From: Ferroacidibacillus organovorans
Lineage (GTDB): Bacteria > Bacillota > Bacilli > Alicyclobacillales > SLC66
Length of the DNA: 51,304 bases
Direction: 5' to 3'
Assembly (NCBI RefSeq): GCF_001642725.1
Contig: NZ_LSUQ01000017.1
Span: 1-51,304 of the forward strand
Shown here: piece after piece, positions 7,405 through 51,304 of the stretch
Layout: every line of letters starts with the position of its first letter
Position numbering within the stretch: the stretch's first letter is position 1
Notes under the pieces: generated by a model
What the model saw: the letters and a program-made list of their open reading frames with translations, nothing else
Databases searched by the model: none
What the model was told of the DNA's origin: nothing
Translations under genes and position numbers: made by a program

Positions 7405-7932
7405 ATGGATGGCCAGGAGCGTGCGCGTCGTCAGGAGATGCTTATCGATTTTTTGCGGCAAGCAGAGGGCCCTCTTTCTGGTACACAGTTGGCGCGTCGT
7501 CTCGGCGTGACACGCCAAGTGGTCGTACATGATATCGCGCTTATGCGCGCCGCGGGTGTAACGATTTTATCGACGCCCCAAGGATATATTTATCAACAAC
7601 GCGACTCGATGCGTTCCCAGACGGTGCTCGGGGTAAATCACACCCCAGAGCAAACAGCCCTGGAACTCTATACAATGGTTGATTTTGGGCTCTACGTGAT
7701 GGACGTACAAGTTGAACATCCGCTGTACGGGATGTTATCCGGTGCGCTGCGACTAGCGTCGCGCCGAGATGTCGAGCTATTCCTTGAGCAAGTGCAGCGG
7801 CTGGACGCGCCGCTGCTTTCTTCTATAACGGGTGGATCGCACTATCACACGATCGCCTATCGCGAGACGCGCCATGTTGAAGAGGCGATCGCGAAACTGC
7901 GTGCGGTTGGGATCCACGTCGATGACGCGTGA
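7405..7932 (+). CDS. niaR: NiaR-type transcriptional repressor (HTH plus 3H domain)
   Basis: A 175-residue regulator. The N-terminal winged helix (GTQLARRLGVTRQVVVHDIALMR, about residues 24-46) is followed by a ligand domain with three conserved histidines (NHT, EHPLYG, and the H-x-H of GGSHYHTI). This architecture matches NiaR (YrxA), the niacin-responsive repressor of NAD biosynthesis and niacin uptake genes. No NAD biosynthetic gene is adjacent; it is divergent from marC and convergent with purT. GGCGGTG precedes the ATG. Confidence 0.82.
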   Translation: MDGQERARRQEMLIDFLRQAEGPLSGTQLARRLGVTRQVVVHDIALMRAAGVTILSTPQGYIYQQRDSMRSQTVLGVNHTPEQTALELYTMVDFGLYVMDVQVEHPLYGMLSGALRLASRRDVELFLEQVQRLDAPLLSSITGGSHYHTIAYRETRHVEEAIAKLRAVGIHVDDA

Positions 7933-12013: not shown

Positions 12014-12121
12014 TTCGTCCCGCCGTTTTAATCATGAGCCAGTACACTGATGCTGCACAGGGTACGCCGTGTGCTTGATGACGTGGCTAGGCAAATGGGA
12101 TTACGCAAGGGGCAATGTTGG

Positions 12122-14137
12122 ATGTGCGGAATTGCTGCAATCGTACCAAAGATACACCCATTTCCACAGCAGGAAGAGATTTTGGTGGAAATGCTTGATA
12201 GCATGGTTCATCGCGGGCCGGATGGTCACGGGGTGATGCGAAAAGGACACCTCGCGTTGGGTATGGTTCGACTTGCGATCGTTGATCTTGAGCATGGCAT
12301 GCAACCGCTTTTTAATGAAGATCAGACACTTACCTTGGTTTGTAATGGAGAAATCTACAATGCGGATGACCTGCGGACATCCTTGATCAAATCCGGGCAT
12401 ACGTTTCAAACGTTTTCAGACACTGAAGTGATTTTACATTTATACGAAGAAAAAGGGAAAGAATGCCTTGCCGATCTTGAAGGCATTTTTGCATTTGCAC
12501 TATGGGATGAAAAAGAGCAAGAACTTTTTATTGCGCGGGATCGACTCGGCGTAAAACCACTCTACTATATGGATCAGGGGGCGTATTGGGCGATCGCGTC
12601 AGAAATGCGCGCGCTCCTTCCTTTGATCGATGAGGCGGTTCACCTTGATCGCGATGCGGTGACTGCGTATCATGCGTACCGCTTTACACCGCGCGAGCAG
12701 ACGATGGTCAAAGGGATTTATCGGCTACTCCCAGGTCACTATGCAGTCGCCTCGAAAGCGGGGATGGTGCACCATGCGTATTGGACCCCTGTGTTTGCGA
12801 CGCCAATCGTGAAGCGCAACCATGCGGATCAGGCCGTACACCTGCGCTCTCTGCTTTTTCACGCTGTAAAGAGTCAACATGCGGAGGAAGTCAAATCTGC
12901 CGTGCTTTTAAGCGGAGGGTTAGATTCGACAGCGATCCTCGCGATGCGACGCGAATTTCTGGGAAACCGCGAGGATTGTGCCATTACGGTTGCGTTTGAG
13001 CGACCGAAACGACACGCGGAGCGTGAAGAGTACACGGAAATGAGCGAGGCAGAACGTGTCGCGCTCCGTTTCGGTGCGCAACATCTCTCGCAAATCGTCA
13101 GTGCGGAAGAAGCGCTAGAAGCGTTTCCTCGTATTATCCAAGATCTTGATGAACCGATCGCTGATCCGACAGCCATTCCACTCTGGTTTGCGGCAAAGCT
13201 TGCGAACCGTCACGAAACGAAGGTTTTATACAGCGGTGAAGGCATGGATGAGTTGTTTGCGGGATATTCCATCTATGGTCACGAGAAGGTGTTGCGCCGT
13301 ATGCGCATGATCCCATCGCCCTTGCGGCGGGCGCTGCGAAACATACTTTTGCGGGCAGACTTGCCGGGTGCAGGTGTCCTGGAGCGGTCGCTAAGTGATG
13401 TGGAGACGTGGTATCAAGGCGTTGGCGGTGTGTTTACGCGCGCAGAGCGCATCGCGCTTCTGGGTGGAGACGAGAGCCGACGAGGTAAGTGTCCTTCTGC
13501 ATTTTACGGAGAATCGCTTGATAAAGCGAAACATAGTGCAAGTAGCGACCTGCAGCGCATGATGCTTCTTGATCTTGTGACGTGGCTGCCCGACAATACG
13601 CTTGCCAAATCGGATAAGATCACCATGGCACACTCTGTGGAGATGCGCGTGCCCTTTTTGAATCAAGAAGTGGTGGAGTATGCCCTCGCGTGTCCGGATC
13701 ACCTGAAGTGGAAACGGGAAGGGAAAGAGATTGTGCGCAGAGCGCTCGAAGGTGTTATACCGGAGGAGGTTCTTAGGCGCAAAAAGGTCGGATTTAACGT
13801 ACCCGTATCGGCGTGGATCTTTGGCGAGTGGAATTCCTATGCAAAAGCGATGCTTTTATCGGATGACGCCGTGACCCGAACGCTATACGAACATCGCGCG
13901 GCGCACCTTTTTGATGCAAAACCCAGTCAACAAGAGCGCGCTGGAAGGCTATTGTTTGCTATGCTGACCTTGGAGCTTTGGCTTAGGTACATGCCGATGC
14001 GAGCGGAAAAAAGGGGATTGTTTCATGAACGGGAAGTCGCGCATTATCCCACTGAAAGAAGGATTCCACGTGTGGACGCGGCAAGTGGGGGAAAGTCCGA
14101 TCAAGCTGTTGCTGCTTCACGGCGGGCCTGGGTTTAA
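12122..14137 (+). CDS. asnB: Glutamine-hydrolysing asparagine synthetase
   Basis: Makes asparagine from aspartate, glutamine and ATP. The true start must be ATG 12122, because the class II amidotransferase needs Cys directly after Met (MCGIAAIV); AAGGGG lies nine bases upstream. The glutaminase domain has HRGPDG and CNGEIYN. The synthetase domain has the ATP loop LLSGGLDSTAI and YSGEGMDELFAGY. At 671 residues it is about 40-60 longer than typical. The extra C-terminal tail (after LFAMLTLELWLR) overlaps the first 113 bases of the next gene and looks like read-through beyond an ancestral stop. A second, different asparagine synthetase lies at 20562-22409. Confidence 0.92.
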   Translation: MCGIAAIVPKIHPFPQQEEILVEMLDSMVHRGPDGHGVMRKGHLALGMVRLAIVDLEHGMQPLFNEDQTLTLVCNGEIYNADDLRTSLIKSGHTFQTFSDTEVILHLYEEKGKECLADLEGIFAFALWDEKEQELFIARDRLGVKPLYYMDQGAYWAIASEMRALLPLIDEAVHLDRDAVTAYHAYRFTPREQTMVKGIYRLLPGHYAVASKAGMVHHAYWTPVFATPIVKRNHADQAVHLRSLLFHAVKSQHAEEVKSAVLLSGGLDSTAILAMRREFLGNREDCAITVAFERPKRHAEREEYTEMSEAERVALRFGAQHLSQIVSAEEALEAFPRIIQDLDEPIADPTAIPLWFAAKLANRHETKVLYSGEGMDELFAGYSIYGHEKVLRRMRMIPSPLRRALRNILLRADLPGAGVLERSLSDVETWYQGVGGVFTRAERIALLGGDESRRGKCPSAFYGESLDKAKHSASSDLQRMMLLDLVTWLPDNTLAKSDKITMAHSVEMRVPFLNQEVVEYALACPDHLKWKREGKEIVRRALEGVIPEEVLRRKKVGFNVPVSAWIFGEWNSYAKAMLLSDDAVTRTLYEHRAAHLFDAKPSQQERAGRLLFAMLTLELWLRYMPMRAEKRGLFHEREVAHYPTERRIPRVDAASGGKSDQAVAASRRAWV

Positions 14138-20561: not shown

Positions 20562-22409
20562 TTAGATGAGCGTCACGCGGTGGGTTGTCATCCACGCGTT
20601 GATTTGAATGATGTAGTCAAACAGTTGCGGAATCGCCATGATCTGCCCGAACCAAGGTTCGTGCTCCAGGTGACCGCGACTTTTTTCTATGGTCTGCCGC
20701 ACTGCGGCGACGTCGATCAAAGCAAGAACGGGCGATGAAGCGTCCGAGAGGATCGCTTCGACACGCGCGCGCGTGCCTTCGAGATACGCTGGGTGAGCGG
20801 TGGATGGATAGGGACTCTTTTTTCGATAGACGACATCATATGGAAGTATTCCCTCAGCCGCCTTGCGAAGAATTGCCTTGGGCGTTCCATTAAGGCTTTT
20901 TAGAAACCATGGAATGTTCCAGACATACTCAATCAGGCGATGGTCGCAAAACGGGACGCGCACCTCGAGACCCGCGGCCATACTCATGCGATCCTTGCGT
21001 TCGAGAAGGGTGGGTAAGAAGCGGGTCAAGTTCAAATAGCTGATCTCCCGAATGCGCGCCTCTTGCTTATCTTCGCCATAGAGTCGAGGCACCTCTTTGA
21101 GCGCGTCTGAATAGCGCTCGGCGACGTACGCGGTCGGATCGAGCTTTCCGGCGAGCGCTGGATGAAAATAGCGTATGCGATCACCCAGTCGGCGTGACCA
21201 CGGGAAGGTATTGTCGCTCAGCACCTCAGGGCGGTGAAACCATGGATAGCCTCCGAACACCTCATCAGCCGCTTCGCCGGAAAGTGCAACGGTTGCGTTT
21301 TTTTTGATTGCCTCACAGAAGAGAAACAGTGAGGTGTCAATGTCAGCCATCCCCGGCAGATCGCGCGCGGCGAGTGGTCGCAAAAGGTGTTTGAGCAAAT
21401 CGTCTGTATCTAACACAATATCGTGGTGCACCGTCTGGAGATGTTCTGCGACACGAGTCACCCACGGGGCGTCGCGCCCGGTCTGAAATGCATTTGCTTC
21501 AAAGTGCTCATCCATGCCGATGAAGTCGACAGAGTACGTGTGAAGCGTATCCTTTCCGTTCTGTTTGAGCGCGCGCGCGGCAAATGCACTGACGATGCTT
21601 GAGTCGAGGCCGCCTGAGAGCAGGGTGGCCAGCGGGACGTCTGACACCAACTGACGCGAAACGGCGTCTTCGAGCAGATCGCGAACATGCTCTGCCGTGG
21701 TCCTAAAATCGTGTTCGTGCGGCTTACTCTCAAGTCGCCAATACGTGTGCTCAGACGTGCGCTCGCGGGTGTGCAAGACAAAGGTGCCTGGGCGCACCTC
21801 GTGGATGTGTTTGAAAACGGCGAGTCCCGGCGTTCGCGCGGGGCCGATAAAGCAGAGTTCAGCTAATCCAGTTGCATCTACTTCAGGCGGGATGGCAGGG
21901 TGCGCGAGAATGGCCTTGATCTCGGAGCCGAACGCGAAGACGCCGTCACGGTTCGCAAAATAGAGTGGCTTGACGCCCATGCGATCGCGGGCGAGAAACA
22001 GGGTTTGCTCAGCCTCGTTCCAGATGCCGATGGCGAAGATGCCGTTCATCTTTTCGACGCAGGCGGGGCCCCACTCCATATACGCGAGCAAAACGAGTTC
22101 TGTATCTGAACGCGTTTGCAGGGTGTGTCCGCGCAAAAGCAACTCGCTTCGCAATTCATCCATGTTATAGAGTTCACCATTGTACGTGATACAATAATCC
22201 GAGTGAAAAAGGGAGCGAACCATGGGCTGAACGCCGCCTTCCGGATCGATGACGATCAGGCGGCGATGGGCAAATGCAGCGTGTTCGGAGAGATAGGTGC
22301 CGCTCGCGTCAGGACCGCGACAGACAAGGGTTTCACCCATCGCTTCGACAATCGCTTGCTGTTGTTCACGATGACCCGAAAAATCGATATATCCAGCGAT
22401 ACCACACAT
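20562..22409 (-). CDS. asnO: Asparagine synthetase (glutamine-hydrolysing), AsnO-like
   Basis: 615 residues, the size of B. subtilis AsnO. The Cys2 nucleophile follows the start (MCGIAGYIDF). The glutaminase domain has CRGPDASG and YNGELYN. The synthetase domain has TLLSGGLDSSIV and ALSGEAADEVFGGYPW, then RKDRMSMAAGLEVRVPF. It is clearly different from the asnB at 12122, so this is a second paralogue and not a recent duplicate. In B. subtilis asnO is a sporulation-linked copy, but whether that holds here is inference. GGAGGGG precedes the ATG; divergent from tadA. Confidence 0.9.
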   Translation of the reverse strand: MCGIAGYIDFSGHREQQQAIVEAMGETLVCRGPDASGTYLSEHAAFAHRRLIVIDPEGGVQPMVRSLFHSDYCITYNGELYNMDELRSELLLRGHTLQTRSDTELVLLAYMEWGPACVEKMNGIFAIGIWNEAEQTLFLARDRMGVKPLYFANRDGVFAFGSEIKAILAHPAIPPEVDATGLAELCFIGPARTPGLAVFKHIHEVRPGTFVLHTRERTSEHTYWRLESKPHEHDFRTTAEHVRDLLEDAVSRQLVSDVPLATLLSGGLDSSIVSAFAARALKQNGKDTLHTYSVDFIGMDEHFEANAFQTGRDAPWVTRVAEHLQTVHHDIVLDTDDLLKHLLRPLAARDLPGMADIDTSLFLFCEAIKKNATVALSGEAADEVFGGYPWFHRPEVLSDNTFPWSRRLGDRIRYFHPALAGKLDPTAYVAERYSDALKEVPRLYGEDKQEARIREISYLNLTRFLPTLLERKDRMSMAAGLEVRVPFCDHRLIEYVWNIPWFLKSLNGTPKAILRKAAEGILPYDVVYRKKSPYPSTAHPAYLEGTRARVEAILSDASSPVLALIDVAAVRQTIEKSRGHLEHEPWFGQIMAIPQLFDYIIQINAWMTTHRVTLI

Positions 22410-26573: not shown

Positions 26574-26840
26574 ATGCCTGCGTATCAAATCTGGTTGATC
26601 CTCGCCGGAGGGGTTGTTCTCTTGCTGCTTTTGCGCAGTATGTATCGCGATCCGTCGCGCTATGTGGTTGGGCTTCTAAAGAACGTGATTCTCGGCGGCG
26701 CGGTCTACGTTCTGATCAATAATACACTGCGCACACACGGGTTTCACATTCCGCTGAATTGGGGGACGGTTGCCGTCACTGGAATTCTTGGCGTTCCTGG
26801 AATCGCGGCGCTCACGGTAATCGACCATTGGCTTCTTTAA
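26574..26840 (+). CDS. bofA: Pro-sigma-K processing inhibitor BofA
   Basis: An 88-residue integral membrane protein of the forespore outer membrane. It holds the SpoIVFB protease inactive until the forespore signals, thereby timing SigK activation. It has two hydrophobic segments (LILAGGVVLLLLL and the C-terminal VAVTGILGVPGIAAL), the conserved internal NN (LINNTL) and the GVPG motif. GAGGGGGG precedes the ATG. Its presence shows that the SigK checkpoint exists in this organism. The last four bases overlap the convergent flippase gene. Confidence 0.9.
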   Translation: MPAYQIWLILAGGVVLLLLLRSMYRDPSRYVVGLLKNVILGGAVYVLINNTLRTHGFHIPLNWGTVAVTGILGVPGIAALTVIDHWLL

Positions 26841-28468
26841 GCGCGCAGGAAGCGGCTTATCAGTCTCCCGACAAGCGGTAAATGGACGAGTTCATCGAGC
26901 GTCGATGCTTTGAAAAAGAATGCGGATAAGAGATAAATGGGTATCCCGAGCGCGAGCCCGAGGAGCAGGATCGCGAGTGCAAGCAAACGCGAGTGATCGA
27001 GTGTGAGCGCGTGTGCAACCGATTGGCCGACGCGCTCAATGCCATAGAGCCACGCCCCGAAAACGAGTGTTGCGAGAAAGGGTCTGACACTCAGTTTGAC
27101 ATAGGAGATACGCAGCCCTGAGATGCGGCGAATCAACGCCATGTTGAGCCAGGAGGACAGTGCGTATTCGGCGATACTTGCATACGCTGCGCCTGCAATG
27201 CCATAGATCGGAATGAGTGTGAGGTTTAAAGCAAGTTTTAGGACTGCGCCTGCCGCCATATGGACGACAGGGCGATAGAACGCATTGTATCCTTGGAGGA
27301 TATACGTTGAGACCAATTCAAGTCCAGAGAGAACAACAATGATGGAGGTTGCCTTCATCATTGTGACGCCATCTGTCCCGCGAAACAATGCGATGTCAAT
27401 CGGGCGCGCCATCGTAAAAAGTACGGCAAACGCGGGAAGCGCGATGAGTGTCGACATATGCAGCGCTTGGTGCAGGCGCGTGCGCGTCAGCGCAGGATTG
27501 CGTAGTGTGACGCTCTCCGAGATGGCGGGAAGCGCGGATGTGCCGATGGCTGTTGCGAACGAGAGGGGCAACTGGATTAAACGGAGCGCTTCGCCAGAGT
27601 AAACACCGTACTGTGAAAACGCGCTTACAAGCGTGGCGCCGCTTGTAACGAGTACGCGTGGAACGGTCCATCCGTCGATGGTTTGCGAGATCGGCAAGAC
27701 GAGTGTTCCAAGTGTGATTGGGAGCGACATCGCAAAGAGATTGCGCAAGATGGGCCGCGCGCGCAGCGCCGATTTTTTGAGGTGGGGCAAGCGGCGAAGG
27801 GTTTCTCTGCGCATTTTTTTTACGGATTGCAAAAGCAACATAAAGGCTGTAATCGCGCCGGCGGTGGCGCCAAACGTGGCGATCGCCGCAGTCACGGTAG
27901 GACCTGCCCCCATCTTTACCGCGATGATCAGCGCTAAAAGGACGACGACGACGCGCGTGATTTGCTCGACGACCTGCGATGCGCCGGACTGTTTTAATCG
28001 AAAGTTTCCTTGGAGATAGCCGCGCTGCGCACTCATGAGGGGAAGCAGCAAAAGTGCTGGCGCGAGTGCGCGGATCGCGGGAATGGCAGCGATGCGCATG
28101 GCGTCTCCGGGGACCGATAGTCCGACGAGGTAGGGGCCTGCAAACCACATAATGAGAAACGCGGGGATGCCAAGGAGCATCAAGAAGCGACCTACGATAC
28201 TGAACATGTGGCTGGCTTCGCGAAGCTTTCCTTGTGCGACAAAGTCACTGATCGATTTTGAGAGGGCGAGTGGGAAACCGGCTGTTGACAGGGTGATCAT
28301 GACGGTATAAAGAGGATAGACGAGTTGATATAATCCGAGTGCGTAATTGCCGATCAGGTTTTGCATTGGCACGATGAGCGCAATCCCAAGGATTCGGGAG
28401 ATGAAAACAGCACTTACCATAGATGACGCTCCGCGGCGAAATTTTGTTTCATCCGAATCGGGCCTCAT
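26837..28468 (-). CDS. MurJ/SpoVB-like polysaccharide flippase (MVIN/MATE superfamily)
   Basis: 543 residues with about 14 hydrophobic segments, typical of the SpoVB/YabM/YtgP group that moves lipid-linked precursors across the membrane. The N-terminal signature (FISRILGIALIVPMQNLIG, then GLYQLVYPLYT) is present, followed by GYLQGNF. In spore formers paralogues serve cortex or cell-wall synthesis; which one this is cannot be told from the sequence. AGGAGG precedes the ATG. It is convergent with bofA. Confidence 0.86.
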   Translation of the reverse strand: MRPDSDETKFRRGASSMVSAVFISRILGIALIVPMQNLIGNYALGLYQLVYPLYTVMITLSTAGFPLALSKSISDFVAQGKLREASHMFSIVGRFLMLLGIPAFLIMWFAGPYLVGLSVPGDAMRIAAIPAIRALAPALLLLPLMSAQRGYLQGNFRLKQSGASQVVEQITRVVVVLLALIIAVKMGAGPTVTAAIATFGATAGAITAFMLLLQSVKKMRRETLRRLPHLKKSALRARPILRNLFAMSLPITLGTLVLPISQTIDGWTVPRVLVTSGATLVSAFSQYGVYSGEALRLIQLPLSFATAIGTSALPAISESVTLRNPALTRTRLHQALHMSTLIALPAFAVLFTMARPIDIALFRGTDGVTMMKATSIIVVLSGLELVSTYILQGYNAFYRPVVHMAAGAVLKLALNLTLIPIYGIAGAAYASIAEYALSSWLNMALIRRISGLRISYVKLSVRPFLATLVFGAWLYGIERVGQSVAHALTLDHSRLLALAILLLGLALGIPIYLLSAFFFKASTLDELVHLPLVGRLISRFLRA

Positions 28469-39550: not shown

Positions 39551-41062
39551 TCACCAGGTATTTATCTCAAGCGCGCGGTTCACGGGATCAATGTAGATCT
39601 CCCGAGCGACCGCGCGAATGACCGCCTGTCGCACATCCTCTGGCACTTCACGCTGCGGTAGTGCCAGAAACTGCTCGATCCGTAGTGTGCCTTGAGATGG
39701 CACAGTATCCGCATTCCACTCGCTTCCCGCGTCGTGAGCTGACCGCTCCTCTTCAAGCGCCGCCAATTGTGCACGCAAGACGCACTTGCGTTCGCTCAGC
39801 TTTTTGGCGTGTGCGAGCCATTCACTTTCTTCACAGTCAGGATCCTCAAGAAAATGAATCAATCGCGCGTATGCGGCTTCTACCCGCCCCAATTCCGCGC
39901 AGAGTGTCTCGCGTAAAAGCGTGCACGCGTCTTCCTCGTTTTTCACGCGGTCTTCACGGATAGCGTAACTCCATTCCACAGGTTCCAACCACGCTTTTAT
40001 CGCCCACCACACCGCGTCATCGATGCGATCACAGCGCAAGGATAGGACACACCCAGATGTCTTTGCACCTTGTGTGTGTTTGCGATCGGTGTACGTGTAT
40101 ACGTGTTTTCCCCACTGCGTCGCACGGCATCCGGTCAGCGTATTTCCGCACAGCGCACAGCGCAACAGCCCGCTCAATAGATAACGGTGACGCGTCTGCG
40201 CCGTTCTACGACGTTTGGAGACGGATAGTTTGGATTGAGCGAGTTCAAAAATCTCTCGCGAAACAATGGCGGGAACATCAATTTTGATCCACTCTTCGAA
40301 CGGGCGTGTCTGTACGGTAAAGGGGGCATTTGGAGTTCGCGTGCGCCTGCCTTCTGCCTTCCAGCGATTTTGGTAGAATTCCCCGATATAGGTTTGGTTC
40401 ATCAAGATCTGGCGTACGACCTGGCGATGAAACAGCGGCGCGCCGCGCTTCGTCGGAATCCCGCGCTCATTTAAAAACCGCGCGATACCGTTGATCCCCT
40501 GCACTTCTCGGGTGGGCGATGTAAACAGAGAAAAAATGAGGCGTACGATGGCAGCCTCCCGTTCATCGACGAAAAACGCCGCGGTTGCGCGATCATAGCG
40601 ATACCCGTAGATGGAAAAATCGCGCAGCACACGACCCTGTTTCGCTTTTTCACGCCTCCCGCGCGCCATGCGTTCATTGATTTTCGCCTTTTCAAACTGA
40701 CTGATCGCGCCGCGCATCTGATAGAAGAGCTGTCCTTCCGGCGTATTCTGATATTCACCGCTTACAAAGCGCAGTGTCGCGCGCTTTTCCCACTCGTCGG
40801 AGAGCACCAATTGGTTCATCAATTTACGCGAGAGGCGATCAGGGTCTAGGCAGATCACCTCGTTGATCTCACCGTCGAGAATGGCCCGGCGCAGCGCAAA
40901 GAGCGCTGGTCGATCGAGGGTTTCTCCGGAGACGCCTTCATCTACATATTCGCGCACGGGTGAATTACCTGCGATCGCTCGACAACTCCTCAGTTGGTCG
41001 TTCAGGCTGAAGCCGTTTTTCGCTTGATCCTCGGTCGAGACGCGCGCGTAGATCGCAATCAA
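39551..41062 (-). CDS. spoIVCA: Large serine site-specific recombinase, SpoIVCA-like (skin excisionase)
   Basis: 503 residues. The resolvase domain starts MIAIYARVSTEDQ with the nucleophile Ser9. It is followed by the stretch highly characteristic of SpoIVCA: LDPDRLSRKLMNQL, GEYQNTPEGQLFYQMRGAI and SQFEKAKINERM. Then come a recombinase domain (HRQVVRQILMNQTYIGE), a zinc ribbon (LLRCALCGNTLTG) and a C-terminal coiled coil. TTG start about eight bases after AAAGGAG. In B. subtilis the homologue is made in the mother cell under SigE/SpoIIID and excises skin to rebuild sigK. Here the gene lies next to the C-terminal half of sigK. Confidence 0.95.
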   Translation of the reverse strand: MIAIYARVSTEDQAKNGFSLNDQLRSCRAIAGNSPVREYVDEGVSGETLDRPALFALRRAILDGEINEVICLDPDRLSRKLMNQLVLSDEWEKRATLRFVSGEYQNTPEGQLFYQMRGAISQFEKAKINERMARGRREKAKQGRVLRDFSIYGYRYDRATAAFFVDEREAAIVRLIFSLFTSPTREVQGINGIARFLNERGIPTKRGAPLFHRQVVRQILMNQTYIGEFYQNRWKAEGRRTRTPNAPFTVQTRPFEEWIKIDVPAIVSREIFELAQSKLSVSKRRRTAQTRHRYLLSGLLRCALCGNTLTGCRATQWGKHVYTYTDRKHTQGAKTSGCVLSLRCDRIDDAVWWAIKAWLEPVEWSYAIREDRVKNEEDACTLLRETLCAELGRVEAAYARLIHFLEDPDCEESEWLAHAKKLSERKCVLRAQLAALEEERSAHDAGSEWNADTVPSQGTLRIEQFLALPQREVPEDVRQAVIRAVAREIYIDPVNRALEINTW

Positions 41063-46603: not shown

Positions 46604-46728
46604 TCGTCGATGAGGACGTGATTTTCTGCACGTGGGCGCTACCGCAGGCATAGGATGCCTATGCGTTTGTGACAAATGACCACGCCCTCTTGGCGTGGTA
46701 CGTCGCGCAGGCGCGGGGGGCGAGCGTC

Positions 46729-47595
46729 GTGTGGAAAGTCGGCGATTTGGTGGTTCGGCCATCGTATGGCAGAGATGTTTGCTTTGTCATTACGCGGGTT
46801 GATCTTGAGGCGGGCACTGTCGAGCTTAAGGGCTTGGACGTGCGCCTGGTCGCGGATGCTCCGTTTTCAGATCTGATGTTGATTACCGAAGATGATTTTA
46901 CAGACTATCGTCGCGCACAGGCAAAAATAGAACAGGATACCATTCGGCTTGTCCAATTGCGACGTCAGGCGGATCGCGATAAAAACAATTATCGCTCAGA
47001 GCGAAGCAGGCATCCGTATGATTTTTTTGAGCGTCCCGGCCGTGTGCTGCACCTCGATGGGGATGGAACGTATTTAGAGAAATGCATTCAGACCTATCGT
47101 CGTCTCGGTGTCCGTGCGGTCGGGAAGAATCTTGACGAGTCAACCATTGCAGAACGCATCCCTGATCTGCTTGAACAATACGCGCCTGATATTCTGGTCA
47201 TCACGGGACACGACAGCGTCATGCGAAAGCAGCGCGGTGAGTCGGAGGTCATGCACGTAGGGAATTATCGCAACTCGGAGCATTTTGTGCGGGCGGTGCG
47301 GGCCGCGCGAAAGTATGAGCGCAGCCTTGACGAGCTTGTCATCTTTGCTGGGGCGTGTCAGTCTCACTATGAGGCGCTGCTTGACGCGGGGGCAAACTTC
47401 GCGAGTTCTCCCGATCGCATCATGATTCACGCGCTGGATCCCGTGTTTGTGGCTGAGAAGGTGGCGTTTACGCCGATTGGTGAAACAATTGACATCTATG
47501 CGGTTGTACAGTCTACCATTACGGGGACGGAAGGGCTTGGGGGTCTTGAGTCGAGGGGGAAATATCGGATGGGATTGCCGCGATCACGGTATTGA
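46729..47595 (+). CDS. yabG: Sporulation-specific protease YabG
   Basis: About 288 residues, matching B. subtilis YabG: an N-terminal KVGDLVVRPSYGRDV, central GRVLHLDGDGTYLEKC, ILVITGHDSV, VIFAGACQSHYEALL with the candidate catalytic Cys/His, and ASSPDRIMIHALDPV, ending ETIDIYAVV ... GLGGLESRGKYRMGLP. YabG trims spore coat proteins and is SigK-dependent in B. subtilis. GTG 46729 is chosen as the start because GGGGGG lies about eight bases upstream and this gives the family N-terminus; the frame is open to 46669. Confidence 0.92.
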   Translation: MWKVGDLVVRPSYGRDVCFVITRVDLEAGTVELKGLDVRLVADAPFSDLMLITEDDFTDYRRAQAKIEQDTIRLVQLRRQADRDKNNYRSERSRHPYDFFERPGRVLHLDGDGTYLEKCIQTYRRLGVRAVGKNLDESTIAERIPDLLEQYAPDILVITGHDSVMRKQRGESEVMHVGNYRNSEHFVRAVRAARKYERSLDELVIFAGACQSHYEALLDAGANFASSPDRIMIHALDPVFVAEKVAFTPIGETIDIYAVVQSTITGTEGLGGLESRGKYRMGLPRSRY

Positions 47596-47680: not shown

Positions 47681-47706
47681 GACAGTACTGAAAAGAGGTG
47701 GAGTTT

Positions 47707-47985
47707 GTGGCTGCTAAAAATGCCTTAAATGACATCAAGCGTAACTTGGAAGGCCTCGTCGGTGAAAAAATCCTTTTGCGTGCAAATGGTGGTCGCAGAA
47801 AGACCGTTGAACGAACGGGCGTCCTCGAAGAAACGTACCCCTCTGTTTTTGTTGTCCGTCTGGATGAAGCGGAAAATTCTTTTAAACGTGTGTCGTATAG
47901 CTATGCAGATATTCTCACTGAAACGGTTGAACTCATGGTGTGCAAGGATGACTTGCATGTCAAAGTCGGTGCAGACACGGAATAG
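47707..47985 (+). CDS. veg: Veg protein
   Basis: About 92 residues, a conserved Bacillota protein linked in B. subtilis to biofilm gene expression. It opens [21 protein letters not shown] and has [30 protein letters not shown] 47707 follows AAAGAGGTGG; the GTG at 47698 sits inside that ribosome binding site. Two strong promoters drive it and a terminator follows, consistent with the high expression known for veg. Confidence 0.93.
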
Positions 47986-48106: not shown

Positions 48107-48289
48107 ATGGGACGAAGACGAGGCGTGATGTCAGAGCAGTTCAAGTATGAGCTCGCTAAGGATCTTGGCTTTTACCCCACGCTAGAACGTGAGGGTTGGG
48201 GTGGGATTACGACGCGCGACGCAGGGAATATGGTAAAACGGGCCATTGAGATTGCTGAGGCGTCGCTCACGGCGCGTGAGAGGACCTAG
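48107..48289 (+). CDS. sspF: Small acid-soluble spore protein, alpha/beta type (SspF)
   Basis: 60 residues with [20 protein letters not shown] and [20 protein letters not shown], nearly identical to B. subtilis SspF over these blocks. SspF belongs to the spore DNA-binding SASP group made in the forespore. AAAGGGGG precedes the ATG. The position after veg is conserved. The following terminator makes it a single-gene unit. Confidence 0.95.
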
Positions 48290-48317
48290 TCTGACTTGTT
48301 TTTGAGAGTATGCTCCT

Positions 48318-48352
48318 ACAGGGTGGTTGGTTTCTGCCACCCTGTTTTGTTT
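48318..48352 (+). terminator. Terminator of sspF
   Basis: ACAGGGTGG (48318-48326) pairs with CCACCCTGT (48337-48345), followed by TTTTGTTTC. Confidence 0.85.
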
Positions 48353-48490
48353 CATTTGTCGCGCGGGTTTGTATAACCTGAAAAGAATCGGAAAGTCTAG
48401 AAGTGCCAGTTCAAAAGTCAGGAATGGGATTCATGTTTTTTAATCATCGCGATTTGTGCGCGGGTCAGTGTCGTGACCAGGGGGATAACC

Positions 48491-49315
48491 ATGACGAAAC
48501 AAAAAGGACCGCTTGTAATTGTCGGCGGTGCCGAAGATAAAAAAAATGAAATGATCATTCTTCGCGAGTTTGTAAGGTTGTCAGGAGGGACGCACAGCAA
48601 GATTGTCGTGATGACTGTTGCGACGAAGCTTCCCATAGAAGTCGGTGCAGAGTATGTCGACGTGTTTGAACAGATTGGCGTTGCTGATGTACGGACGTTC
48701 GACGTCTCTTCGCGTGAGGACGCCAATCGCGCGAGTGCCTGTAAAGCGATCGAAGAGGCGACAGGCGTCTTTTTCACAGGTGGTGACCAATTGCGGATCA
48801 CCACCCTTTTAGGTGGAACGAATATGGACGCGGCGCTCCAGACGGGTCTTGAACAAGGGCTTGTGCTCGCAGGGACAAGCGCCGGTGCCTCGATGATGAG
48901 CAGCACGATGATTGTAGAGGGAATCGCTGAGACCAATCCGCGCATGGGCATTGTGAACATGGCGCCAGGTATGGAATTTCTGGACGGTGTCGTCATCGAC
49001 CAACATTTTGCGCAGCGTGGACGCCTTGGCAGGTTGCTTTCGGCCGTCGCGCAGTATCCACACCACCTCGGGCTTGGCATCGATGAGGATACGGCAATCA
49101 TCGTCAAAGAGACAACGTTTGAGGTGATCGGACGCGGCGCGGTATCCGTCGTTGACGCCGGAGCGCTCCTGTATTCCAACCTGCAAGATTTGCGACACAA
49201 CGACGCGTTGGCGCTGGGTGGCGTAAAACTTCATGTGCTTCCCGCAGGCTATCGGTTTTCGCTGCGCGAGCGCACGCTTTTGACGGGACAAGATTCGAGG
49301 AGTGGAAACGCGTGA
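48491..49315 (+). CDS. cphB: Cyanophycinase
   Basis: Breaks cyanophycin (Asp-Arg polymer) into beta-Asp-Arg dipeptides. A 274-residue serine hydrolase of peptidase family S51: N-terminal LVIVGGAEDKKNE, GVFFTGGDQLRI, the nucleophile serine in AGTSAGASMMS, VVIDQHFAQRGRLGRL and LGIDEDTAI. ATG 48491 follows CAGGGGG; an earlier in-frame start at 48473 lacks one. The stop overlaps the cphA start, so the two are a coupled operon for storage-polymer turnover. Confidence 0.93.
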   Translation: MTKQKGPLVIVGGAEDKKNEMIILREFVRLSGGTHSKIVVMTVATKLPIEVGAEYVDVFEQIGVADVRTFDVSSREDANRASACKAIEEATGVFFTGGDQLRITTLLGGTNMDAALQTGLEQGLVLAGTSAGASMMSSTMIVEGIAETNPRMGIVNMAPGMEFLDGVVIDQHFAQRGRLGRLLSAVAQYPHHLGLGIDEDTAIIVKETTFEVIGRGAVSVVDAGALLYSNLQDLRHNDALALGGVKLHVLPAGYRFSLRERTLLTGQDSRSGNA

Positions 49316-51304
49316 AGGTCATCCATTATCGTTATCTCGACGGTCCAAATGTGTATCTCCATCGACCCGTTCTGGTCATGCGTGTCGATCTTGAAGACTT
49401 TACGGAGCGTGAGAGCTATGAGTACCGCGGATTTGTCGAGCGCATCCTGGCCGCGTTGCCAGGACTCTACGATCACCATTGCGCAGCGGGGAGACCTGGC
49501 GGATTTGTCGAACGGTTATACGGTGGCACCTATTTTGGGCACATTATCGAGCATGTCGCGATCGAGATGCTCACACGACTCGGATATACCTCCAATTTTG
49601 GAAAGACGCGAAACGCCCTGTTTCCAGGAATCTATGACATCATCATTGAGTGCAAGAACGAGACGGTCGTGCGCAGTGTGTTACAGGTTGCGATGGAATT
49701 CGTCGAAGCTTGCGCAAAACAGTATGCTTACCCACTCGAGGAGCAGATGATTCAGTTGCGCAAGCTCGTCGCGCGAAGTGAGCTTGGTCCAAGCACCGCT
49801 GCGATTGCACAGGCTGCGGCGCGACGACAGATACCTGTGCGGCGTGTGGGCGCAGGGAGCCTTTTGCAACTCGGATATGGAAAATTCAGGCGTTACGTGC
49901 AGGCGACGATGACACAGATGACCTCGGCGATCGGCGTTGACATCGCGAGTGACAAAGCGCTCACCAAACAAATTCTCGACGAGTGCGGAATTCGCACGCC
50001 ACTTGGCGTAGTGACCGAAAAGGTCGAAGAAGCGCTTCAATTTCTGCAGACGCATAACGTGCCGATAGCGCTAAAACCGCTTCACGGCAACCAGGGGCGC
50101 GGGGTCACCGTAGACATCCGACATCCGCGCGAAGTAGAGGCGGCGTTCGCCTTCGCGCAGTCGATCTCTCGCGCAGTCGTGGTGGAAGAGTATGTGCGGG
50201 GGCGGCAGTATCGGCTGCTGGTCGTCGATCAACGCCTTGTTGCGGCGGCTGAACGTGTCCCAGCGCATGTTGTGGGCGATGGGGTTCACGCTATTCAAGA
50301 ATTGATCGAGCGTGTCAATCTTCACCCCGAGCGCGGAGAGGATCACGAAAAGCCACTCACGCGCATTGTCGTTGATCAGGCGGTCTTGCGCCAACTGGAG
50401 AGACAAAAGCGTACGCTGCGCGACATTCCACGCTACGGAGAGCGTGTGTGGCTGCGTGACAGCGCCAATCTAAGCACAGGTGGGATCGCGATTGATGTGA
50501 GTTGCGACGTTAACCCATTTTTTGAGCGACTGGCGCTTCGCGCGGCGCGCGCGGTCTCGCTCGACGTCTGCGGCATTGATCTCATCGCTGAAGATATCGC
50601 ACAAAGAGGTGATCCACAGAGCTATGCGGTAATTGAAGTGAATGCGGCGCCTGGAATTCGCATGCACCACCATCCGAGTATGGGCGAGTCGCGTGATGTC
50701 GCGGCGGCGCTCGTTGATCACATCTACCCGCGCGGCATGCCAAGCCGTATCCCGATCGTGAGTGTGACGGGTACAAATGGCAAGACTACGACAACGCGCC
50801 TGATACGCCACATTCTACGCGAAACGGGGCTCACGGTGGGGATGACAAGTACGGAGGGGGTGTATGTTGACGAGGAGTGCGTCCTCGCGGGCGATACGAC
50901 GGGCCCGCAGAGCGCTCGGATTGTCTTGTCAGACCCGCGCGTGGAGGCGGCGGTGCTTGAGACCGCGCGTGGAGGCATTCAGCGTGCAGGGCTCGGGTAT
51001 GACGTGGCGGATGTAGGGATCATCACATCACTTGCGGATGATCACATCGGGCAAGATGGCATCACGTCCGTTGCGGATATCATCAAAATCAAATCGCTGA
51101 TTGTCGAGTGTCTCGCGACGACAGGACTCGCAGTGCTAAACGCTGACGTTCCTGCACTTGTCGAGCTCGCGGAGGCGCTGCGCCACCCTGTCGCGTTTGT
51201 CAGCCGATACGCAGACAATCCTGTCATCACACGCCACCTCGCGCGCGGCGGCATGGCTTTCTTTCAACGCGACGGGTGGCTCGTCGAGGCAGCGGGATCG
51301 CTTG
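49312..51304 (+). CDS. cphA: Cyanophycin synthetase (3' end outside the window)
   Basis: Polymerises aspartate and arginine into cyanophycin without ribosomes. GTG start inside the cphB stop; open to the window edge (664 residues seen of roughly 870-880 expected). An N-terminal domain with GTYFGHIIEHVAIEM precedes the ATP-grasp domain, which adds arginine or aspartate (KPLHGNQGRGVTVD, VVEEYVRGRQYRLLVV, VIEVNAAPGIRMH). The Mur-ligase-like domain begins VSVTGTNGKTTTTRLI with GDTTGPQSAR and ETARGGI after it. Confidence 0.93.
   Translation, partial: MKVIHYRYLDGPNVYLHRPVLVMRVDLEDFTERESYEYRGFVERILAALPGLYDHHCAAGRPGGFVERLYGGTYFGHIIEHVAIEMLTRLGYTSNFGKTRNALFPGIYDIIIECKNETVVRSVLQVAMEFVEACAKQYAYPLEEQMIQLRKLVARSELGPSTAAIAQAAARRQIPVRRVGAGSLLQLGYGKFRRYVQATMTQMTSAIGVDIASDKALTKQILDECGIRTPLGVVTEKVEEALQFLQTHNVPIALKPLHGNQGRGVTVDIRHPREVEAAFAFAQSISRAVVVEEYVRGRQYRLLVVDQRLVAAAERVPAHVVGDGVHAIQELIERVNLHPERGEDHEKPLTRIVVDQAVLRQLERQKRTLRDIPRYGERVWLRDSANLSTGGIAIDVSCDVNPFFERLALRAARAVSLDVCGIDLIAEDIAQRGDPQSYAVIEVNAAPGIRMHHHPSMGESRDVAAALVDHIYPRGMPSRIPIVSVTGTNGKTTTTRLIRHILRETGLTVGMTSTEGVYVDEECVLAGDTTGPQSARIVLSDPRVEAAVLETARGGIQRAGLGYDVADVGIITSLADDHIGQDGITSVADIIKIKSLIVECLATTGLAVLNADVPALVELAEALRHPVAFVSRYADNPVITRHLARGGMAFFQRDGWLVEAAGSL

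Follow-up and report, generated by a model that had tools for sequence, protein, structure and literature searches.

A cyanophycin gene pair with a predicted forespore-type promoter in a conserved spore-gene neighbourhood of Ferroacidibacillus organovorans

The window, that is, the whole stretch of 51,304 bp of Ferroacidibacillus organovorans DNA analysed here, is one entire contig (C17, 51304 bp) of an assembly of 98 contigs. Between 46.7 and 51.3 kb it carried yabG, veg, sspF, a terminator-like hairpin, a predicted promoter, cphB and cphA in this order, the last gene running into the contig end (Table 1). The reading frame of cphB opens with an ATG and closes with a stop at 49313-49315, giving a protein of 274 aa; cphA starts from a GTG, its frame stays open through the last base, and the two genes overlap, as a preliminary description of this DNA had stated, the shared bases being GTGA. 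For veg, an in-frame GTG at 47707 may be the true start. Two overlapping predictions covered the hairpin, against 0.3 expected in shuffled sequences. As the hairpin lies between sspF and cphB, cphBA probably forms a transcription unit of its own in the window's genome, and read-through from sspF as its main source in the window's genus was rejected on the same account. The earlier placing of the operon directly after veg-sspF thus stood for the cphBA pair and for the yabG, veg and small acid-soluble spore protein (SASP) genes upstream, but the hairpin sets cphB apart from sspF.

Table 1. Features at the cyanophycin locus, with positions in the window
Feature	Position	Strand	Evidence and remarks
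yabG (spore-coat protease family)	46669..47595	+	Pfam PF05582, 362 bits; conserved upstream neighbour
veg	47698..47985	+	NF046033, 144 bits (cut-off 135); conserved upstream neighbour
sspF, alpha/beta-type small acid-soluble spore protein gene	48107..48289	+	Pfam PF00269, 32 bits (cut-off 22)
Intrinsic-terminator-like hairpin in the sspF/cphB gap	48318..48345	+	10-pair stem, T-rich tail
Predicted forespore-type (sigmaF/sigmaG) promoter of cphBA	48371..48399	+	GTATA-14-GGAAAGTCTA
cphB, cyanophycinase (peptidase S51)	48491..49315	+	TIGR02069; PDB 7uqv
cphA, cyanophycin synthetase CphA1, 5' part	49312..51304	+	TIGR02068; PDB 7lg5; ends at contig end

Since the window is a whole contig, cphA was cut by the assembly, and the break beyond the window that had been considered earlier came down to the end of a contig. 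The missing C-terminal part found no match elsewhere in the window's assembly, in which another contig (C24) picks up inside prs. In a congener (genome G001, locus L037) cphA is whole and encodes 881 aa, 91% identical to the window's CphA; a pseudogene was ruled out, the frame being open to the contig end and intact in the congener. There, cphA is followed by genes which we take, by recognition, to be ispE, purR, yabJ/ridA, spoVG, glmU, prs, ctc and pth.

The identity of both genes, as named in the preliminary description, is practically certain. CphB scored 311 bits with TIGR02069 (cut-off 126.6), and the 663-aa CphA fragment scored 929.2 bits with TIGR02068 (cut-off 850) with about a quarter of the gene missing, while falling just below the cut-off of a second model, NF010623 (851.7 against 877). 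Among solved structures, the closest were the cyanophycinase 7uqv for CphB (E 1.6e-76) and the cyanophycin synthase 7lg5 for CphA (E 4.8e-182). When CphB was aligned to 7uqv and 3en0, the serine nucleophile motif GTSAGAS was found at 128 and DQHF at 170, both motifs with catalytic roles. In CphA, aligned to 7lg5, the M domain has its P-loop GTNGKTT at 487 and the Asp-His pair DDHIG at 576, and the N domain has the Cx19HxxEH site at residues 57-81, which, with a spacing of 18-20 allowed, was present in 40/40 CphA proteins of the order and in 40/40 of the phylum. This site is described as primer-making and as missing from CphA2 (PMC9262961, partial text). A CphA2 identity was rejected, the N-domain motif being present and the M-domain motifs intact.

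The G-domain P-loop differed from that of cyanobacterial CphA1 by having Gln261 (GNQGRG) in place of His267. Gln occupied this position in all 40 proteins of the order and in the outlier L036; among 40 proteins taken from other families of Bacillota, 35 had Gln and 5 had His (28 of the rows behind these counts were scored by eye). In the cyanobacterial enzyme His267 is said to stabilise the acylphosphate (PMC9427784, partial text), and its change to Ala to inactivate the G domain (PMC9262961, partial text). As the residue was defined on cyanobacterial enzymes and is kept in 5/40 proteins of the phylum, we regard it as typical of cyanobacteria and not as a defining feature of CphA1; the change to Gln is lineage-wide and lies within a catalytic loop. 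Compared with the cyanobacterial pair (PDB 3en0, 7lg5), the window thus shares both enzymes, the three-domain CphA1 and the primer-making N domain, but has Gln instead of His267 and, in place of a photosynthetic cell, a spore-gene neighbourhood and a forespore-type promoter.

Of 58 relatives within the order, 57 gave a long CphA match; the one that did not is a genome 73% complete (G009). Two genomes of the same class gave weak, Mur-ligase-like matches only. Gene context was compared in 40 of the 58 relatives (G009 was among the 18 left out): cphB precedes cphA in 40/40 loci, veg lies upstream in 39/40 and yabG in 38/40, and a same-strand SASP gene stands between veg and cphB in 37/40. Such conservation among relatives excludes chance for the observed arrangement. 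In one genus (locus L042, G003:C51), the SASP match upstream of cphB, at 211-387, is on the opposite strand, yet the cphB promoter site is retained; in another member of the order (L064, G035:C1), cphA is split in two frames near oriented position 7660, by a frameshift or a sequencing error. In a CphA tree that had no cyanobacterial rows, the order formed one clade (19 rows) with support of 100 and each of its two families one clade, and recent repeated transfer within the order was rejected on this ground.

The preliminary description was right that cyanophycin is best known from cyanobacteria, yet cphA proved to be common in Bacillota, with CphA above the cut-off in 119 of 398 sampled genomes, including only 1/15 other genomes of the window's class. 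From these 119 genomes one locus each was taken for 40 families (at least three such families, f67, f109 and f141, were left out). Here ispE directly follows cphA in 36/40, cphB precedes cphA on the same strand in 38/40, and veg lies within 8 kb upstream in 15/40; the cph pair therefore holds the veg-ispE interval far outside the window's order, and the cphB-cphA-ispE slot offers a marker for dating the module. In Bacillus subtilis, the corresponding place presumably reads veg-sspF-ispE, without cph genes. A survey lists 179 Firmicutes genomes with cphA, every one with a cyanophycinase (PMC10206079, partial text).

The predicted promoter was found between the sspF terminator and cphB by aligning the relatives. 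The pattern GTATAN{13,15}GGAAANTCTA matched the 3.03-Mb genome once, at this very site, and its reversed control gave 0 matches. A matrix was built from 19 seed sites of 16 genera chosen by eye, and only held-out genera and other families served as tests. With the genus held out, the window site scored 23.8, while its shuffles reached 13.4 at most, and 34 of 42 upstream regions (40 order loci, the window and L036) scored at p<0.05 and 32 at p<0.01 in dinucleotide shuffles; by group median, 16/20 groups scored. Four fell short by this measure: g2, g4, g15 and the outlier L036. The sspF-cphB gap of g2 and g4 spans only 75-103 bp, and a site stands before sspF in 5/5 of their loci (p<=0.01), which looks like a single sspF-cphB-cphA unit; in L041, a g4 locus, an in-gap site scored too. 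In g15 the best sites of 2/3 loci end in GCATGATA, nearer to the sigmaG form of spoVT. Upstream of sspF, 14/38 regions scored in single-base shuffles, the window's own being a miss (p=0.93).

A loose form of the motif gave 9 matches genome-wide against 17 for its reversed control and picked out no regulon, so that it is meaningful only through position and conservation. A regular expression made after the first sites had been seen, and hence not a test, gave 12 hits in the loci (10 before cphB, 2 before sspF) and missed the window site, and a Gibbs search on untrimmed upstream regions converged on the sspF coding sequence. A sigma70-type promoter was rejected: 0 sites were found in 48280-48500, and the bases after the GNATA box differ among genera. 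CATA is the core of the SigE/SigK -10 box, and it was absent from 48353-48490, where SigE/SigK boxes had been suggested; the forespore-type site lies there instead. Boxes of the SigE/SigK kind are quoted in PMC3789822 (partial text).

The unchanged order-only matrix was then applied upstream of cphB in 38 other families, where 21 or 23 regions scored at p<0.05 in two runs, as p-values near 0.05 shift between runs (21/38 or 23/38); 15-17/38 did not score. Control regions from the same loci, together with iadA of the order, totalled 28/218 at this threshold: ispE 0/36, purR 3/23, spoVG 5/29, glmU 5/34, prs 4/32, pth 5/24, yabG 1/6, veg 1/14 and iadA 4/20, the last on par with the other controls. 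Since controls passed at about 13% rather than the nominal 5%, the shuffles are lenient. Position was informative as well, the best cphB sites falling at -60 to -90 in 23/38 regions against 5.1 expected (p=1.4e-11), compared with p of 0.02-0.4 for seven control genes tested in the same manner.

As yardsticks within the order, spoVT and spoIIR were scored with the matrix. Among the spoVT loci 17/29 scored, 14 of these with GNATA-15-..ACATAATA, and among those of spoIIR 5/29, with GTTTA or GTATA-15-GG.CA.A.TG. Because both spoVT and spoIIR score, the matrix alone does not separate sigmaG from sigmaF. The cphB sites have the GG of spoIIR and the final TA of spoVT. In Clostridioides difficile, sigmaF sites are told by a G that precedes the -10 box and sigmaG sites by an A that follows it, and spoVT, having both marks, may answer to both factors (PMC3789822, partial text); overlap of the two regulons is also stressed elsewhere (PMC7438776, partial text). 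Given these mixed traits and overlapping regulons, we label the cphB sites forespore-type, for sigmaF or for both factors. The window site and its relatives combine a GNATA -35 box with a -10 box that has G upstream or A downstream, and forespore-type control of cphBA is, on these sequence features, very probable. The window's genome has two SpoIIR-like genes (G000:C18:32369-32881 and G000:C28:22323-22709), as has the congener G001, the second being just below the family cut-off.

A spoIVA match was present in 115 of the 119 cphA-bearing genomes, and the four without it are 61-90% complete. Among the 398 genomes, 336 have spoIVA, 221 have spoIVA only and 58 have neither gene (Fisher p=1.8e-6, with kinship ignored). 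The 221 genomes with spoIVA and without cphA indicate that the module is dispensable for sporulation. IadA, which would complete the breakdown, was searched for in 61 genomes and exceeded the cut-off in 49; it did not do so in the window's genome, the congener G001 and eight other members of the order (one of which, G021, has pieces) or in the same-class genomes G059 and G060, and the IaaA family (PF01112) was found in 0/61. The search for a beta-Asp-Arg hydrolase in the window's genus covered IadA and IaaA, and the window's genome (G000) and G001 keep CphA and CphB without either. In a survey, 10.1% of the Firmicutes with cphA1 had IadA/IaaA (PMC10206079, partial text), so that the window's order is much richer in IadA.

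From these comparisons we infer the acting sigma factor, the synthesis of the polymer, its compartment and its role. CphA1 joins Asp and Arg into cyanophycin, and CphB cleaves the polymer to beta-Asp-Arg. In the window's lineage, forespore transcription of the cphB-cphA pair would start at a promoter for sigmaF or for both sigmaF and sigmaG, polymer would accumulate inside the future spore, with CphB likewise supplied there, and germination or outgrowth would draw on the polymer as a reserve of Arg and Asp for nitrogen, carbon and energy. Since one unit encodes both the synthetase and the degrading enzyme, some other mechanism has to keep the two activities apart in time. This point weighs against the reading, as do the Gln at the His267 position, the regions without a scoring site, the leniency of the shuffles, the spoIVA-bearing genomes that lack cphA and a failed extraction of cyanophycin from Clostridium ljungdahlii (PMC13241827, partial text). 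Taken as a whole, the reading of a canonical CphA1/CphB pair that is expressed in the forespore and provides an Arg/Asp reserve appears reasonably likely. Of its parts, transcription of cphBA in the forespore is probably ancestral in spore-forming Bacillota, synthesis of the polymer in the forespore is slightly more likely than not, and the use of the polymer as a germination reserve may be proposed with slightly less than even confidence. The link to sporulation or germination drawn in the preliminary description was strengthened by the forespore-type promoter, the slot and the co-occurrence with spoIVA, while the mother-cell control by SigE/SigK that it had envisaged was left unsupported.

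Cyanophycin could instead serve growing or starved cells as a general store of nitrogen, the way it does in cyanobacteria, with a spore-gene slot that is inherited and meaningless. Granules in growing cells of Clostridium ljungdahlii, tied to arginine catabolism (PMC13241827, partial text), agree with this, and cyanophycin has been drawn as a storage polymer in the lithotrophic growth of that organism (PMC5640608, partial text). The forespore promoter would then contribute no more than a small burst late on, next to a vegetative promoter that has escaped notice, which we regard as unlikely, and the general reserve itself is likewise rather unlikely here, as the gap upstream of cphB has no sigma70-type site, its recurrent conserved element is of forespore type and cphA is nearly confined to spoIVA-bearing genomes. 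A reserve of the mother cell under SigE/SigK, feeding the sporangium, would fit the neighbour yabG, which is under sigmaK in C. difficile (PMC3789822, partial text); given the lack of CATA in the interval noted above and a conserved GNATA...GG..A...TA element that belongs to the other compartment, it is highly improbable.

The zwitterionic polymer might also have a structural or protective part in core packing or spore assembly and not be food. Here the C. perfringens cphA mutant of Liu et al. (2016) is of interest, which reportedly forms fewer and smaller spores with normal heat resistance, and the window's genus has CphA and CphB without IadA or IaaA, so that complete degradation to amino acids may be less important in that genus. 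Against such a role, the gene of the degrading enzyme precedes cphA throughout the order loci and in nearly all phylum loci, and most of the relatives searched have IadA above the cut-off, which makes a structural or protective role improbable.

A link of cyanophycin to sporulation is already in print for C. perfringens and for segmented filamentous bacteria. The former resembles the window as an endospore former with cyanophycin genes implicated in spore assembly; we know of no forespore promoter or gene slot reported for its cphA/cphB. The spore study concerned is cited in PMC5532821. In segmented filamentous bacteria, cphAB and ispE stand before the ger operon and a use in germination was proposed (PMC9482736, partial text). 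They share cphAB adjoining ispE with the window's lineage, but have the ger operon beside ispE, where the window's congener has purR-spoVG-glmU; beyond that report, the present comparison follows the slot through 36 of 40 families and links it with a promoter. Bacillus horikoshii 20a is likewise an endospore-forming bacillus with cyanophycin genes, yet has three tandem CphA2-like genes without the Arg-addition residues, 2.76 Mb from its cyanophycinase gene (PMC5532821), in contrast to the single CphA1 gene overlapping cphB in the window. In C. ljungdahlii, granules were seen and cphB was among the induced sporulation genes, and extraction of cyanophycin failed (PMC13241827, partial text). Our literature search gave no paper on Alicyclobacillus and cyanophycin, and the combination of cyanophycin and forespore brought up a single paper, on dipicolinic acid production; no report of forespore control of cph genes or of the phylum-wide slot was found at title and abstract level, where subscription journals were thinly covered. 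The enzymes and the outline of the sporulation link are thus known, and what is new here is the compartment-specific hypothesis with its phylum-wide comparative support.

Cyanophycin genes occur widely among spore formers, and a conserved promoter of forespore type suggests in which compartment and when they act. Should the polymer be stored in the forespore, spores of many Bacillota would hold Arg and Asp in reserve, which would affect germination on poor media. We tentatively suggest that cyanophycin was a forespore product already in the ancestry of Bacillota: an early spore former would have had cphB-cphA between veg and ispE behind a forespore promoter, and, as part of the same tentative claim, the pair would later have been lost from many lineages, among them that of the common laboratory model. 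Such losses would leave textbook spores without a polymeric amino-acid reserve that many others carry.

Some further features of the window were recorded. A large serine recombinase is encoded at 39551-41062 (-) beside the metG region and is possibly a mobile-element remnant; its best models were the cassette recombinases CcrB/CcrC and XisF, all below their cut-offs. Two genes for glutamine-hydrolysing asparagine synthases, at 12050-14137 (+) and 20562-22409 (-), lie at most 10 kb apart, and both exceed the TIGR01536 cut-off. A SpoVB-like flippase gene at 26837-28468 (-), with 210 for TIGR02900 against a cut-off of 372, is possibly a paralogue.
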